A stretch of 64,000 nucleotides of DNA from a virus. Below the pieces are notes generated by a model. That model searched no databases and was not told where the DNA came from. It saw nothing but the letters and a program-made list of their open reading frames with translations. The position numbers and the translations under genes are program-made. Below are positions 38,672-47,931 of the stretch, one piece after another; positions within the stretch are counted from its first letter, which is position 1; the number at the start of each line of letters is the position of its first letter. The stretch covers positions 30,369-94,368 of the IMG/VR virus record IMGVR_UViG_3300028146_000008; one strand, 5' to 3'.

Positions 38672-38778
38672 GCGGGCCTCCCTGATCCTGGGCCTAGTTC
38701 GTCGTCGTTAAGAATTTTCCAAAGTACAAACACCAGCACGAAAATTGGCAGCCAACCTAACAATGACGAAATCACCAC
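38668..38778 (-). CDS. 36-aa membrane peptide
   Basis: GTGGTG start overlapping the previous stop. One membrane helix (LLGWLPIFVLVFVLWKIL). Ends ATGA into the coiled-coil gene. Confidence 0.5.
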   Translation of the reverse strand: MVISSLLGWLPIFVLVFVLWKILNDDELGPGSGRPA

Positions 38779-39281
38779 AAACCCTCAAAGGCACCGTGGA
38801 CCGCTAAGTTCACCATGCACTTTTGAAATTCCAGACCGTCTTCGAGACTTTTATCCCAAGTGGCTAAATGGCATTGCTCGTGAAGGAGTGTCTGCCGCGC
38901 CTGTTTCCCTGTCGGGTGGGTGTCTCGGTCAATTAAAATTTCGTACCGATTCTCGTGCTTTATGGTGTAACCCATGTTGTGCAGCGGCGTTAAATCCGCC
39001 CAGTGAACTTCGGTGTTTGCAGGCAACTGGTTCAGAAAATATTGTTCGTTGTACCCGGCGTACCACTTAGCCCAGTCTTCTTCCGGAAAAGGTGTCTCGG
39101 TTTTCTTGCGGGCGACGTGACGCCCTTGTTGTTCACAAACTGAACTACCACAGCAAGACACTGCTTTAAACGCGGCCATGGCATCCGAGTGCAGCGCGAC
39201 CAACAGTGCGCCGGTCAGCATAATCAGCAGAACCCCGAATACGAATAACCAGAAGCTCAGTTTTTGACGTGTGACGGGCAT
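38772..39281 (-). CDS. Membrane-anchored SprT-like zinc protease
   Basis: 169 residues from ATG at 39281. N-terminal membrane helix (FWLFVFGVLLIMLTGALLVA), then a soluble part with TLLHEQCHLATWD, an HExxH zinc site as in SprT-like metallopeptidases, preceded by KHENRYEILIDR strands. Predicted protease facing away from the cytoplasm or a DNA-protein processing relative. Follows a leaderless membrane gene. Confidence 0.6.
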   Translation of the reverse strand: MPVTRQKLSFWLFVFGVLLIMLTGALLVALHSDAMAAFKAVSCCGSSVCEQQGRHVARKKTETPFPEEDWAKWYAGYNEQYFLNQLPANTEVHWADLTPLHNMGYTIKHENRYEILIDRDTHPTGKQARQTLLHEQCHLATWDKSLEDGLEFQKCMVNLAVHGAFEGLW

Positions 39282-39283
39282 AT

Positions 39284-39532
39284 TTAATCGTTCGCCGCGC
39301 ATGTAGCTATAATCAGGAACAAAAACGCTGCAGCAAGCGGTACAGGCCACGGATTCTGAATTTTGGCGGCATACGCGGAAATCAGTCCTATGAAGAAAAT
39401 GAAGACCCGGCACGGACGATCTTCCAGATACCAGAAAATGCTTTTAATCGCGCTCCATGCTTCCTTAACAGAAACAAGGAACAGAGTTGTAAGCGCCCCG
39501 AGTATGAACGATATTGCTATCCAGTGTGCCAT
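39284..39532 (-). CDS. Three-segment membrane protein (82 aa), leaderless
   Basis: Hydrophobic regions WIAISFILGALTTLFLVSV, VFIFFIGLISAYAA and VPLAAAFLFLIIATC. The -10 box TAGTAT is six bases upstream of ATG, so no leader or ribosome site. Role unknown. Confidence 0.6.
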   Translation of the reverse strand: MAHWIAISFILGALTTLFLVSVKEAWSAIKSIFWYLEDRPCRVFIFFIGLISAYAAKIQNPWPVPLAAAFLFLIIATCAAND

Positions 39533-39609: not shown

Positions 39610-39642
39610 AAAAACAAGCGGGGTTTTTAGGCCCCGCTTTTT
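39610..39642. terminator. Bidirectional rho-independent terminator
   Basis: AGCGGGG/CCCCGCT stem with T-runs on both strands. It ends leftward transcription that passes through the phased tract. Confidence 0.8.
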
Positions 39643-39660
39643 AGCGGTTCGGTTCCAATC

Positions 39661-39965
39661 CAGTCCGCGCTAGACCCGACCTCTGCTCACCCCGCCCCGC
39701 CTTGCCTGCCGTGCCCCGCCTAGTCGAACTATGCTATGTCGTACCTTTCCTCACCTGCATTGCCTCGCCTGACCGCGATCAACCGCACTATGTCACGCCT
39801 CTCCTCGCCTGCGCTACCTCACTAAACCTCGGCTCGCTCGGCCAGACCAGACCGTCCCTAGCCTGCTTCGCCTTGCTGTATCACACCGCATCGTACCCGG
39901 CCTTCCCTAGCCTGCCCTACTGTTCCGGACCTGTTCGGGTCATGCCGCTCCTCGCCTGCATTACA
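39661..39965. repeat. CC-every-five-bases tract, non-coding
   Basis: About 300 bases in which CC recurs at steps of 5, 10 or 15 bases, with a few 9-base steps often after CCTGC. Five related blocks share CCT-nGCCTGC. Strong C/T strand bias. A five-base period does not fit codons, and the open frame here results from the composition. On the leftward transcript it reads GG every five bases. Function unknown. Confidence 0.6.
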
Positions 39966-40003
39966 ATTCCACGCCCAGCTCCACCGTGTGGAGAAAGTTG
40001 AGA

Positions 40004-40567
40004 TTATGCCGCTGCGGCGGTTCTTCCGTCAACAGCGGCTTGAAGTTTGCGGGCAAGAATGGTTTGCTCCCCCCGCGCCAATTCCGATATGGATTTCTTT
40101 CCTAGTTTGGTTAGCCGTTCTTTCGCATACTCCATAACCTGGAGATGTCGGCGGTGTCCTTCGATCTGTTGTTCGTAACGGTTGATGGTGTAGTTTAGGT
40201 CGAATACTGTGAAAGTGATGAATTTTTTTCTCCGGCCATTGATATCGTAACTGGCGTGGAGCACGCTGATCTCGATGTCAATCGTCTCTTCTTTTGGGCG
40301 CTCGATGGATATAGATCCTGTATATGAAGCTATTGGCTCTGTGTAGGATCTTGCTGGTATTCTCTCAACTCTGCTTTCTGGCTCGGGACGACGTTTTCCA
40401 ACCATCACAGAGCTAAGATGGCTCGCAAGTGCTTGTTGGGCCAGCGTTTTTATATCCGAGTCTGAGAGCGAAAGATCATCCCAGAATTTTCGGACGAGTT
40501 TGATTGCAGCCTCGTCCGAATTCCGAGCGTTTTTCAAAATGTAGTTAACTGACTGAGGAATGCTCAA
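40004..40567 (-). CDS. Unknown protein (187 aa)
   Basis: Helical start (DEAAIKLVRKFWDDLSLSDS), strands in the middle (ISVLHASYDINGRRKKFITF), helical end with an Ala-rich tail. Linked to the gene at 40582-41229 with 14 bases between. Not recognised. Confidence 0.55.
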   Translation of the reverse strand: MSIPQSVNYILKNARNSDEAAIKLVRKFWDDLSLSDSDIKTLAQQALASHLSSVMVGKRRPEPESRVERIPARSYTEPIASYTGSISIERPKEETIDIEISVLHASYDINGRRKKFITFTVFDLNYTINRYEQQIEGHRRHLQVMEYAKERLTKLGKKSISELARGEQTILARKLQAAVDGRTAAAA

Positions 40568-40581
40568 GATTTATCTCCAAG

Positions 40582-41229
40582 TTACTTCAATTCAAACAAA
40601 CCCCAGCCCATGCCAGCGGAGTTCTTGCTGTCGGGTCGGCCTTCGCCGATTCCGACTTGCTGGCCCACGCGCATCAGAAGGTTGGAAATATCTGCTGCCG
40701 TGAATTGGTCGCCATCCCAACGGATTTTAATTTTCGCGGACCAATCGTAATATGCGGGCCGAACACACAGATACGGCTGACCGGTTTCAACACGGGCAAC
40801 ATCTTCCTGCTTCGTCGGCTTCCCATAAATCCTGATGAGCGGGATTTGCGGTTCTTTGGCGTCCCGACCGTCCGCCAGCACGAAAATCGAGAGCTTGGCC
40901 AATGTCATTTTGAAGTTCACTAAACGGCAAGCTGAAATCATGGCGTTGCGAACGGATGCCGCGTGGAACCCATCCCATCCTTCTTCCGAGATGTATCGGG
41001 CTTCGTTGTAAATCTCGTTCGTATCTTTTGCTTCCCGATTTTTCTTGCTACCGGCAGCCTTTCCTGTTTCCATCTTCTGTTTGAACTGTTCTTTGAGCTT
41101 TTGGCTCATGCGGTGGATCACCAGCGGAGCGATCCCTTTAACTTCAAACATTCCATTCTGGAATTTTGGAGCTGGGATAGTTACGCGGGTCTTTGATTCA
41201 GATGTGGTGATTGTATTTGTCGTTGCCAT
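40582..41229 (-). CDS. Widespread phage protein with GIGEGRPDSKNSAG motif
   Basis: 215 residues of a family I know from many phages without assigned role: PLVIHRMSQKLKEQFKQKME, VRNAMISACRLVNFKMTLAK, and the end VGIGEGRPDSKNSAGMGWG. The last Gly-rich motif may bind nucleotide or nucleic acid. ATG with AGGAGAAT upstream. Possibly early, in a unit with the gene at 40004. Confidence 0.7.
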   Translation of the reverse strand: MATTNTITTSESKTRVTIPAPKFQNGMFEVKGIAPLVIHRMSQKLKEQFKQKMETGKAAGSKKNREAKDTNEIYNEARYISEEGWDGFHAASVRNAMISACRLVNFKMTLAKLSIFVLADGRDAKEPQIPLIRIYGKPTKQEDVARVETGQPYLCVRPAYYDWSAKIKIRWDGDQFTAADISNLLMRVGQQVGIGEGRPDSKNSAGMGWGLFELK

Positions 41230-41627: not shown

Positions 41628-42200
41628 CTATTTTGTATATCTAGTTCTCGGGTCCCATCCGAACGGAACACTGATTACTGGTTTGCCTTCGGTTGGGTCA
41701 TGGATATGTTCCACGGTTACGGTCAAATCCCGAATGACGCCCCGAGCGAGGTCGCCCCAAATCTCGATACGGTCAATCTCGTCTTGTTGGCCGTCCAGAT
41801 ACGCCCTTTGAATATTGGCCTTTTCGATGGTCATCACGCGCGGCGTTTTCTGGGCCTTGGAAGATCGAACCAACCCCAGGTCTTCCGCCTGTTTGCCGCC
41901 CCATACTAGGTTCGGGTTCGGGGCGGGGAAGAATCGTTTCTTTTCTTCATTGAACCGCCACTCCGTAATCAGATAGTCCGCGATACCATGTTTCACCAGA
42001 ATTTCGGCTTCGTCGGTGGTCACGCGGTAACTACACCGGCAGTTTGGTTTGCGAGTCTCCCCTAGAACCTTGGCGGCGTCTTTCCAGAGTTTGTTGAAAT
42101 CTTCCTTAGTGAGATGACCGTCTTCGAGCCAGGGCTGGACAAATCGGAGCACCTTCTGTTGATCGGTACAAGCGTGAACGAGCGACGGGCGCAAACTCAT
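41628..42200 (-). CDS. Unknown protein (190 aa)
   Basis: Helical N-terminus (KEDFNKLWKDAAKVLGETRK), a CRCSYRVTTDEAEILVKHGI middle, beta C-terminus. Overlaps the HNH gene upstream by four bases. Not recognised. Confidence 0.55.
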   Translation of the reverse strand: MSLRPSLVHACTDQQKVLRFVQPWLEDGHLTKEDFNKLWKDAAKVLGETRKPNCRCSYRVTTDEAEILVKHGIADYLITEWRFNEEKKRFFPAPNPNLVWGGKQAEDLGLVRSSKAQKTPRVMTIEKANIQRAYLDGQQDEIDRIEIWGDLARGVIRDLTVTVEHIHDPTEGKPVISVPFGWDPRTRYTK

Positions 42201-42844
42201 GCTGCCGCCTTCTGATACGCGGTTAGTTGTGCGATCCAGTCATAAAAATCGGCCACCGTTAAATTGGACTTTGCTCGATTGCAAACGGTACAGCACGGAA
42301 CTACGTTATCGAGTGTATAGTGCTTTGAACTGTCTACTCGATCCAAGCCGTTGTACCAGAATTCTGAATTCTTAATACCACGGCGGGCATAGGAATACAC
42401 GCTGCGCGGCCTCCCACCGCAATACACGCAAGGTTTCTGCGTAAGGGCTAGAAAAATGTCCTTTTCGATGTGCCACTCTAACCCACGTCTTTTTGCGGTT
42501 GTTTGGTAAACTTTATATACCGCATTTTTTGACGCTTCGCCAGGAGGCAGACTGCGCAGTTGTCTCAGTTTTTCTCTCCCTGCGGCGGTCGTTTGCCATT
42601 TTCGGTTTGCCATACATCCGCAACTAATCGGCGCGGTTGGCTTCAACATTATCATTCTCCAAAAGGTTCTCTCTTTCCCACAAACACACCGACATTTCAC
42701 TAAATAGCGACCTCGTGGGTCTTTAAATTCCTCCAGAATTTCGAGGTTGTTTATCTTTTTCCCAGTTAGCGTGATCTTGTTCCACGGTGTACGACCTTTT
42801 CGCGAAGATGTTAGTTTTCTAATAAAGAGAAACTTCCTTTCCAC
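42197..42844 (-). CDS. HNH homing endonuclease
   Basis: 215 residues. DNA-binding zinc-type start (LVKCRCVCGKERTFWRMIML, ISCGCMANRKW), then an HNH core: KPCVYCGGRP, NGLDRVDSSKHYTLDNVVPC, CTVCNRAKSNLT, the layout of phage HNH homing enzymes. GTG start inside the previous gene. Probably a free-standing mobile gene. Confidence 0.85.
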   Translation of the reverse strand: MERKFLFIRKLTSSRKGRTPWNKITLTGKKINNLEILEEFKDPRGRYLVKCRCVCGKERTFWRMIMLKPTAPISCGCMANRKWQTTAAGREKLRQLRSLPPGEASKNAVYKVYQTTAKRRGLEWHIEKDIFLALTQKPCVYCGGRPRSVYSYARRGIKNSEFWYNGLDRVDSSKHYTLDNVVPCCTVCNRAKSNLTVADFYDWIAQLTAYQKAAA

Positions 42845-47030: not shown

Positions 47031-47227
47031 GCACCCTCAAAAATGCAGCCAATCAGCAAAGGAGCGCACACAAACAACAGCCCAGCCCCGGCAACGGGAT
47101 ACCAGGGAACCATCCCCAGTAACCCTAAAACTCTTACAAGCCGAAACCGAGAATCCCCGGTCAGTTTTAACGGGAGCGCCACAATATTCTCAAAACTCCA
47201 CTCTAGCCACTCTTCACAGTAGATCAT
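47012..47227 (-). CDS. Small membrane protein (71 aa)
   Basis: Two hydrophobic stretches (VRVLGLLGMVPWYPVAGAG and LLFVCAPLLIGCIF). Overlaps the primase gene start. Role unknown. Confidence 0.5.
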   Translation of the reverse strand: MIYCEEWLEWSFENIVALPLKLTGDSRFRLVRVLGLLGMVPWYPVAGAGLLFVCAPLLIGCIFEGAWKNEL

Positions 47228-47844
47228 ATTTCGTACCTATGTGCTTCCTCGAATTCTTTCTCTTTAGCGATACGAGTCAGTTCTTTTTGAACGTTTTCAG
47301 TTGCGACGGCATTATTTTCGGCCATAACACTCTCTACAACTTGATCGGGTATCCTTGACGCCGCCGCTTTCGTTCTTACACCGATCACAACTTCCGCGCC
47401 GCCATCGGAGTAGAAATTCCGGGTTGCGTATTTCAATTCACGTTCTTCCAACCCACCCACATACTCCGCAAAAGCGTCGAACAGATCGTCTCCAGAAAAA
47501 CTCTGTAGGTTCTTGATAACGTCTGCTCGGATAGGCACGCGGCCCGTCAGAGTAAACGCCTGCGAAGAGAGTCGAACGATTTGTGGATTGTCCTGTTCTT
47601 CGGCAACCCCTCCTGGAACGGTGTTTGTCCGGAACCGGCTATCTACAACTTTTAAATATTCGGAAATTGGGTAAGCAAACCCTCGTTCTTTGACTGAAAC
47701 CGCCCAATCTAAAAAGTCTGCTCTGACCGCCTCCGTCCCATACGCGGCTTCCACGAGCTTCAGTCGATCCTTGTACTGCGGATGCACCCCTCTCGTATTC
47801 TTTAATTCCTTGGCTGCGATACGTTCCAAATCTTTAATCAGCAT
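47224..47844 (-). CDS. Unknown replication-module protein (206 aa)
   Basis: ATG at 47844 preferred over starts in the upstream tandem repeat. Helical (YKDRLKLVEAAYGTEAVRAD, FAEYVGGLEERELKYATRNF), acidic end. Between the initiator-like gene and primase-helicase; could be a helicase loader. Not recognised. Confidence 0.55.
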   Translation of the reverse strand: MLIKDLERIAAKELKNTRGVHPQYKDRLKLVEAAYGTEAVRADFLDWAVSVKERGFAYPISEYLKVVDSRFRTNTVPGGVAEEQDNPQIVRLSSQAFTLTGRVPIRADVIKNLQSFSGDDLFDAFAEYVGGLEERELKYATRNFYSDGGAEVVIGVRTKAAASRIPDQVVESVMAENNAVATENVQKELTRIAKEKEFEEAHRYEI

Positions 47845-47862
47845 TGCGCTCGCGCTCCTAAC

Positions 47863-47912
47863 CAACACCAAACCTATCCAATACCAAACCAATACCAAAC
47901 CAATACCAAACC
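47863..47912. repeat. 11-bp tandem repeat upstream of replication gene
   Basis: Three exact AATACCAAACC units (47880-47912) and a diverged one at 47863-47874. Iteron-like or slippage repeat. A nearby inverted repeat ATCCCGGA/TCCGGGAT lies at 47934-47953. Confidence 0.6.
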
Positions 47913-47931
47913 AGTGGGGACTCGTCCCGGA

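Follow-up and report, generated by a model that had tools for sequence, protein, structure and literature searches.

The window, by which we mean the whole stretch of DNA analysed here (64,000 bases, corresponding to positions 30369-94368 of a virus record of 94,368 bases), carries on its minus strand a locus formed by the vipr gene (40582-41229), which encodes a 215-aa Cas7-like RAMP protein, a 187-aa ORF (40004-40567) and a repetitive tract (39652-39985), vipr lying two genes upstream of the tract. Two other genes of this strand are found nearby, namely an HNH/endonuclease VII-like gene (42197-42844) and a SprT-like metallopeptidase gene (38772-39413) whose assignment is below the Pfam cut-off.

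An earlier note on this DNA had reported CC dinucleotides at steps of 5, 10 or 15 bases over a non-coding tract of about 300 bp. The autocorrelation of CC between 39661 and 39965 confirms the periodicity: lags 5, 10 and 15 count 25, 21 and 18 pairs respectively, and lags 6-8 count 2-5 each. The lag-5 count is far above the 7.9 ± 2.5 (sd; maximum 19) obtained in 5000 dinucleotide-preserving shuffles, and the pairs summed over lags 5, 10, 15 and 20 amount to 78, against a mean of 30.8 and a maximum of 53 in 3000 shuffles. A sliding scan along the window, made for CC, GG, AA and TT, gives an excess of 13.5 at the tract and of 3.7 at the runner-up for any of the four. The tract is thus real, and its true limits are slightly wider than those first given, the pattern covering about 330 bp (334 bp, 39652-39985); the six one-base shifts in its phase correspond to 4-nt junctions and are not noise. 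The 99-aa plus-strand ORF that spans it has no Pfam match above the cut-off and therefore gives no sign of coding, in agreement with the earlier view. The tract has no Rfam match either, and a DNA similarity search among phages returned no match, an absence that is expected because the repeats are hypervariable.

On the minus strand, a small HMM resolves the tract into 62 five-nucleotide units of consensus GG-Y-NN, all in register, and six four-nucleotide junctions (nGCA); GG is present in 68% and Y in 81% of the 62 units. The junctions, in the order TGCA, GGCA, AGCA, CGCA, TGCA and GGCA, close a short leading piece and guides a to e respectively, and so divide the tract into six guides of 8-11 units each. 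The leading units (39961-39985) have NN = GG TG GT AT AA. Guide a (39917-39956; NN = GA GC AT CC CA CC AC AG) is made of the units GGCGA GGAGC GGCAT GACCC GAACA GGTCC GGAAC AGTAG; guide b (39868-39912; NN = TA AA CG AC GC GT AC AA GA) of GGCTA GGGAA GGCCG GGTAC GATGC GGTGT GATAC AGCAA GGCGA; guide c (39814-39863; NN = TA AC CT CT CG GA GA TT GA AG) of GGCTA GGGAC GGTCT GGTCT GGCCG AGCGA GCCGA GGTTT AGTGA GGTAG; guide d (39760-39809; NN = GA GA GT AT GC TG GC CA GA AA) of GGCGA GGAGA GGCGT GACAT AGTGC GGTTG ATCGC GGTCA GGCGA GGCAA; guide e (39711-39755; NN = GA AA AC AT AT TC TA GG AC) of GGTGA GGAAA GGTAC GACAT AGCAT AGTTC GACTA GGCGG GGCAC; and guide f, the last in the array (39652-39706; NN = AA GG GG GA GA CG CT GC CT TT and, in brackets, AC), of GGCAA GGCGG GGCGG GGTGA GCAGA GGTCG GGTCT AGCGC GGACT GGATT GGAAC.

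This is the sole segment of its kind in the 94-kb contig, where a search for a second array gave none. An 11-bp tandem repeat (47861-47913, minus strand TTGGTTTGGTA, 4.8 copies) at the start of the ORF 47224-47898 is G-spaced too, yet it is not segmented as a guide array. Just past the array, an intrinsic terminator (AAGCGGGG-CCTAAAAA-CCCCGCTT, then T-rich) is found at 39616-39639; a bidirectional terminator had been claimed here, and the scan detects it in the minus-strand orientation only, downstream of the array on that strand. Just upstream, also on the minus strand, a consensus scan finds a promoter-like site, TTGACG-18-CATAAT (40003-40032; 10/12), which is suggestive by its position only, the scan yielding 2 sites in the region against a chance expectation of 1.9. 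No separate structured 3' tail is seen on the guides, only the nGCA between adjoining ones. The array RNA does not fold better than its shuffles (z = +0.45; 65 of 100 fold as well), so that the structured RNA among the earlier guesses was near the truth as regards RNA and wrong as regards self-structure.

The vipr product belongs to phrog_4652, a class of conserved phage proteins without assigned function, and its description as a Cas7-like RAMP protein comes from sequence and structure comparison. It matches the PDB entry 36pp, 'SUSP1 Vipr protein', with an E-value of 0.005 by phmmer and of 1.7e-4 by profile; the direct sequence homology is weak, and we count this against the identification proposed below. 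In a Foldseek search with its AF2 model (pLDDT 86), every match with E<=0.001 was a CRISPR effector entry, chiefly of type III/VII (Csm, Cmr, type VII), the TM-scores of about 0.4-0.5 indicating a distant relation. The family possesses an invariant G-rich region, GxQxGxxEGRPxSKNSxGMGWG. In named Gordonia phages the gene has homologues whose products match those of felixounaviruses (and their relatives) of Escherichia and Salmonella, a similarity that links the Vipr branch of the window towards SUSP1. PADLOC gave no cas match for vipr or for the next ORF.

This next ORF (40004-40567) occupies the slot that in many relatives belongs to Vap, the accessory gene typical of such loci. The candidate Vap family, defined by the motif SPLHxxFxWDDxEAAExxRLxQARxLIR and the invariant residues H34, W39 and R49 (alignment A2), has homologues in 51 fetched loci and adjoins vipr in those examined (e.g. 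L002, 654-1058); it has no Pfam or convincing PDB match. A homologue sought in the 94-kb contig was not found, which we also count against the identification. The 187-aa ORF itself has no PHROG, Pfam (above the cut-off), PADLOC or phage tblastn match and no homologue among the fetched loci. The reading of this ORF as a divergent Vap finds no support, the hhalign probability against the family profile being 0.2% and the single-sequence model poor (pLDDT 48); the ORF might encode another kind of Vap, unrelated to that of the family. In another locus, the gene that separates vipr from its array (L025, 3180-3850) looks ParB/Srx-like by eye and unlike the usual Vap.

Sixty IMG/VR loci encode relatives of the vipr product, and in 59 of them an array of the same kind is present within 2.5 kb of the gene, mostly downstream (median 486 bp); in the sole exception, L017, the sequence stops 0.8 kb past the gene. 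The arrays of relatives reach 142 units with 13 junctions. An array also stands beside the Vipr homologue in named Gordonia phages, in a cyanophage and in a Rhodoplanes plasmid. In ten loci (L015, L018, L022, L030, L035-L039 and L046), an array lies upstream of vipr, on the same strand and 42-708 bp off, either alone or in addition to a downstream one. The segmenter, applied to opposite strands over 635 kb, returned, beyond the window's own tract (in L001), only four short segments, in L005 and L006; the two short GGYNN-like segments on the strand opposite vipr in L005 and L006 are possibly further vrRNAs transcribed the other way.

The VIPR system, as described in PMC13142463 (bioRxiv 2026.04.26.720920), associates a RAMP protein, Vipr, with vrRNAs of alternating GGY/NN motifs, which it coats. 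According to this account, each vrRNA contains 9-16 tandem YNNGG repeats, the NN dinucleotides base-pair with double-stranded DNA and leave out one base of the target at each unit, and the targets inferred in nature are for the most part competing phages and satellites; experiments established the reading rule and the repression for SUSP1, and vrRNA expression for P. fulva. We are highly confident that the tract of the window is a vrRNA guide array of such a system. The presence of a VIPR array and of its Vipr gene is firm by anatomy and synteny, and the function is inferred. Sequence match, Foldseek and the invariant G-rich region agree with Vipr, a single-RRM RAMP with a G-loop; beside its gene stand tandem five-nucleotide units, 62 in number, arranged in six guides of 8-11; and the NN positions are hypervariable on a conserved backbone (about 0-0.3 bit for NN and 0.7-2 bits for GG in 117 junction contexts from the window and its close relatives). 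Matches to other mobile elements under the one-nucleotide skip are found for the Gordonia relatives. The guides of the window have candidate targets only, which weighs against the identification, as do the units that lack GG and the want of a separate structured tail.

As far as the account of the type II system of the Escherichia phage SUSP1 goes (PMC13142463, PDB 36pp), it shares with the window a single phage-borne RAMP gene and, nearby, non-coding GGY/NN repeats with hypervariable dinucleotides and several guides per locus. It differs in that its vrRNAs, about 100 nt long, are separate and bear a structured 3' tail, invariant in SUSP1 and P. fulva, where the window has one continuous array with nGCA junctions and no recognisable tail, and also in its strict GGY and its Vap1, where the window has 68% GG and no family Vap. 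Since the same source mentions other VIPR types, with 'a related consensus' and with staggered overlapping vrRNAs, the missing tail argues against the SUSP1 type and not against VIPR. Further counterparts are the VIPR loci that we identify here in the Gordonia phages Pipp, UmaThurman, Ecliptus, ODay and in Cyanophage Cy-LDV1, which resemble the window by a homologous Vipr (28-48% identity), an array that directly follows its gene on the same strand, junctions of GGCA and mostly 7-11 units per guide. Unlike the window, they have a nearly strict GG backbone, and the Gordonia loci carry the family Vap and two guides with clear rival-phage targets. The arrays of Pipp and UmaThurman are annotated as genes 43 and 40, 'hypothetical protein' (L072, 4569-4838, and L074, 33362-33685), annotations that are probably spurious.

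These Gordonia phages provide the support for the one-base-skip rule in relatives of the same branch, as judged by comparison of sequences. Scanned against IMG/VR with one skipped base and 18 specified bases, a Pipp guide gave 11 matches, against 0-2 for the guides of the window. In most of the 11, the peptide LTVRNG[D/E]IV can be encoded by the opposite strand, the skipped base then falling at the wobble position, and several of the contigs belong to Gordonia phages, namely Blueberry, Azula, Utz and relatives. On whole genomes, the same guide matches four rival Gordonia phages in one and the same small gene, located after the antirepressor, at 20/20 in Blueberry and Utz and at 19/20 in CarolAnn and KappaFarmDelta; with other skip lengths or after shuffling, it does not exceed 16/20, scores of 19-20/20 being obtained with the 1-nt skip only. 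A UmaThurman guide matches at 18/20, 17/20 and 16/20 in the gene before the antirepressor, in the same operon as the Pipp-guide targets. Most Gordonia phages in these matches list the same laboratory host. Because LTVRNG[D/E]IV is shared by other phages among the 11 matches, the argument lies not in the number of matches but in the clustering in Gordonia phages and the specificity for the skip.

The guides of the window itself, scanned against IMG/VR for exact matches under the one-base skip, yield candidate targets only. Guide d has two matches, in L065 (20/20), where the skipped base falls at the third codon position within a gene with an Acb1 anti-CBASS domain, and in L064 (18); guide e matches two related phage contigs, L066 and L067, at 18/18; and guide f matches L068 at 20/20 over ten units, with the skip at codon position two. 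The candidates that we retain are L065 for guide d, L066/L067 for guide e and L068 for guide f. By a composition-aware estimate scaled to the hit numbers of the same few scans, the probability of the 20/20 of guide d arising by chance is about 0.01, and that for guide e is similar. The two matches of guide a (16/16) are not interpretable, and guide b and the first nine units of guide c have no IMG/VR match; guide c was also compared with the four candidate target contigs, allowing up to 3 mismatches, and found in none. In bacterial genomes, guide d has one 20/20 match; it falls within a Spo0A-like gene from a gut genome bin, and we take it as chance. The guide has no match in its own genome, and hence no self-targeting. 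When 301 guides were compared with the fetched vipr loci and the 94-kb contig with skips of 0-3 bases, no signal rose above that of shuffled guides, and the only perfect matches were those to the window's own array. Kinship with the window phage was sought for the candidate target phages: L065 and L068 have none, and L066 shows two protein matches, both weak and generic, which are not used as evidence.

About one third of the units of the window lack GG, most of them keeping one G (GA, AG), and one may ask whether the array is a decayed one, once functional and now drifting. The loss of GG anchors, kept in only 68% of the units, the absence of Vap from the contig and the lack of a firm target for the window guides would be in keeping with such a decay. 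We nevertheless consider it unlikely. The five-base register and the six nGCA junctions are unbroken over the 334 bp, free of the small deletions of neutral drift, and the vipr ORF is intact, with the invariant residues of its family. Furthermore, the close relatives are equally relaxed (mostly 55-75% GG, other relatives having 95% or more), and many of these carry Vap. In the orthologous guides of L035-L039, 25 differences affect the backbone and 2 the NN (seven pairs, not independent), so that drift is tolerated in the anchors and the read-out is preserved, a pattern that speaks against decay. A vrRNA array with a relaxed backbone and tail-less junctions may represent a variant of VIPR. We tentatively suggest, at somewhat less than even confidence, that this branch has dropped the strict GGY anchor, its Vipr recognising the register of five bases and not the precise bases of the anchor, that the continuous tail-less nGCA array works from one promoter, and that at least this phage does without the usual Vap.

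The other explanations concern the period itself. The earlier note had proposed a protein array in the DNA groove or a primase-loading site, with phased protein sites on the duplex or a G-rich single strand for the priming of replication; in favour of this are a period close to half a helical turn and the strong strand bias of C and G. Such a DNA element is very improbable, since the tract accompanies a RAMP gene in 59 of 60 loci and does so in diverse phages as well as on a plasmid; it possesses its own terminator and promoter-like site, and a groove code would leave unexplained the NN matches to rival phage genes under the 1-nt skip. The idea of a protein lined along the array was near the truth, the support probably being RNA and not the groove of DNA. 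TRAP recognises G/UAG triplets that recur with a period of five nucleotides, but a TRAP-like regulatory RNA, in which a ring protein would bind NAG/GG repeats of this period and so control a transcript, is the least credible of all, the linked protein being a RAMP, the arrays of relatives (up to 142 units and 13 junctions) exceeding a ring of 11 sites, and the NN letters carrying target information.

The mechanism that we propose for the VIPR array of the window is the following. The array would be transcribed on the minus strand, probably as one RNA of about 390 nt, from the promoter near 40003-40032 to the terminator at 39616-39639. The vipr product is the subunit expected to coat this guide RNA; its copies would line up along it, one per five nucleotides, each of them holding GG(Y) and exposing two nucleotides per unit. 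The period of five would follow from the five guide nucleotides that each RAMP subunit is expected to take, three of backbone and two of read-out, if what PMC13142463 describes applies here. The exposed dinucleotides would pair with the DNA of a competing phage, every third target base remaining unread, the skip rule thus holding for the window's own guides as well, and this pairing would block transcription. The RAMP fold, the expected filament on a guide RNA and the periodically disrupted pairing are likenesses to the CRISPR class 1 effectors (Csm, Cmr, type VII), whose Cas7-like backbone assembles on the crRNA; the window differs from them by its unit of five and not six nucleotides, its non-contiguous guide information and the absence of a visible repeat-spacer array. 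A CRISPR-Cas array was indeed rejected for the tract, the unit being 5 nt and the tandem-repeat scan giving no repeats of tens of bp alternating with spacers.

In conclusion, VIPR was described only in 2026 and has been proposed as the viral ancestor of the CRISPR class 1 effectors; the locus of the window and its relatives show how widespread and loosely built its guide arrays can be. The natural variation of the anchor bases makes the recognition rule testable, and the Gordonia phages that carry VIPR, together with the matched rivals that grow on the same laboratory host, offer an immediate test bed for phage-phage warfare by non-contiguous guides.
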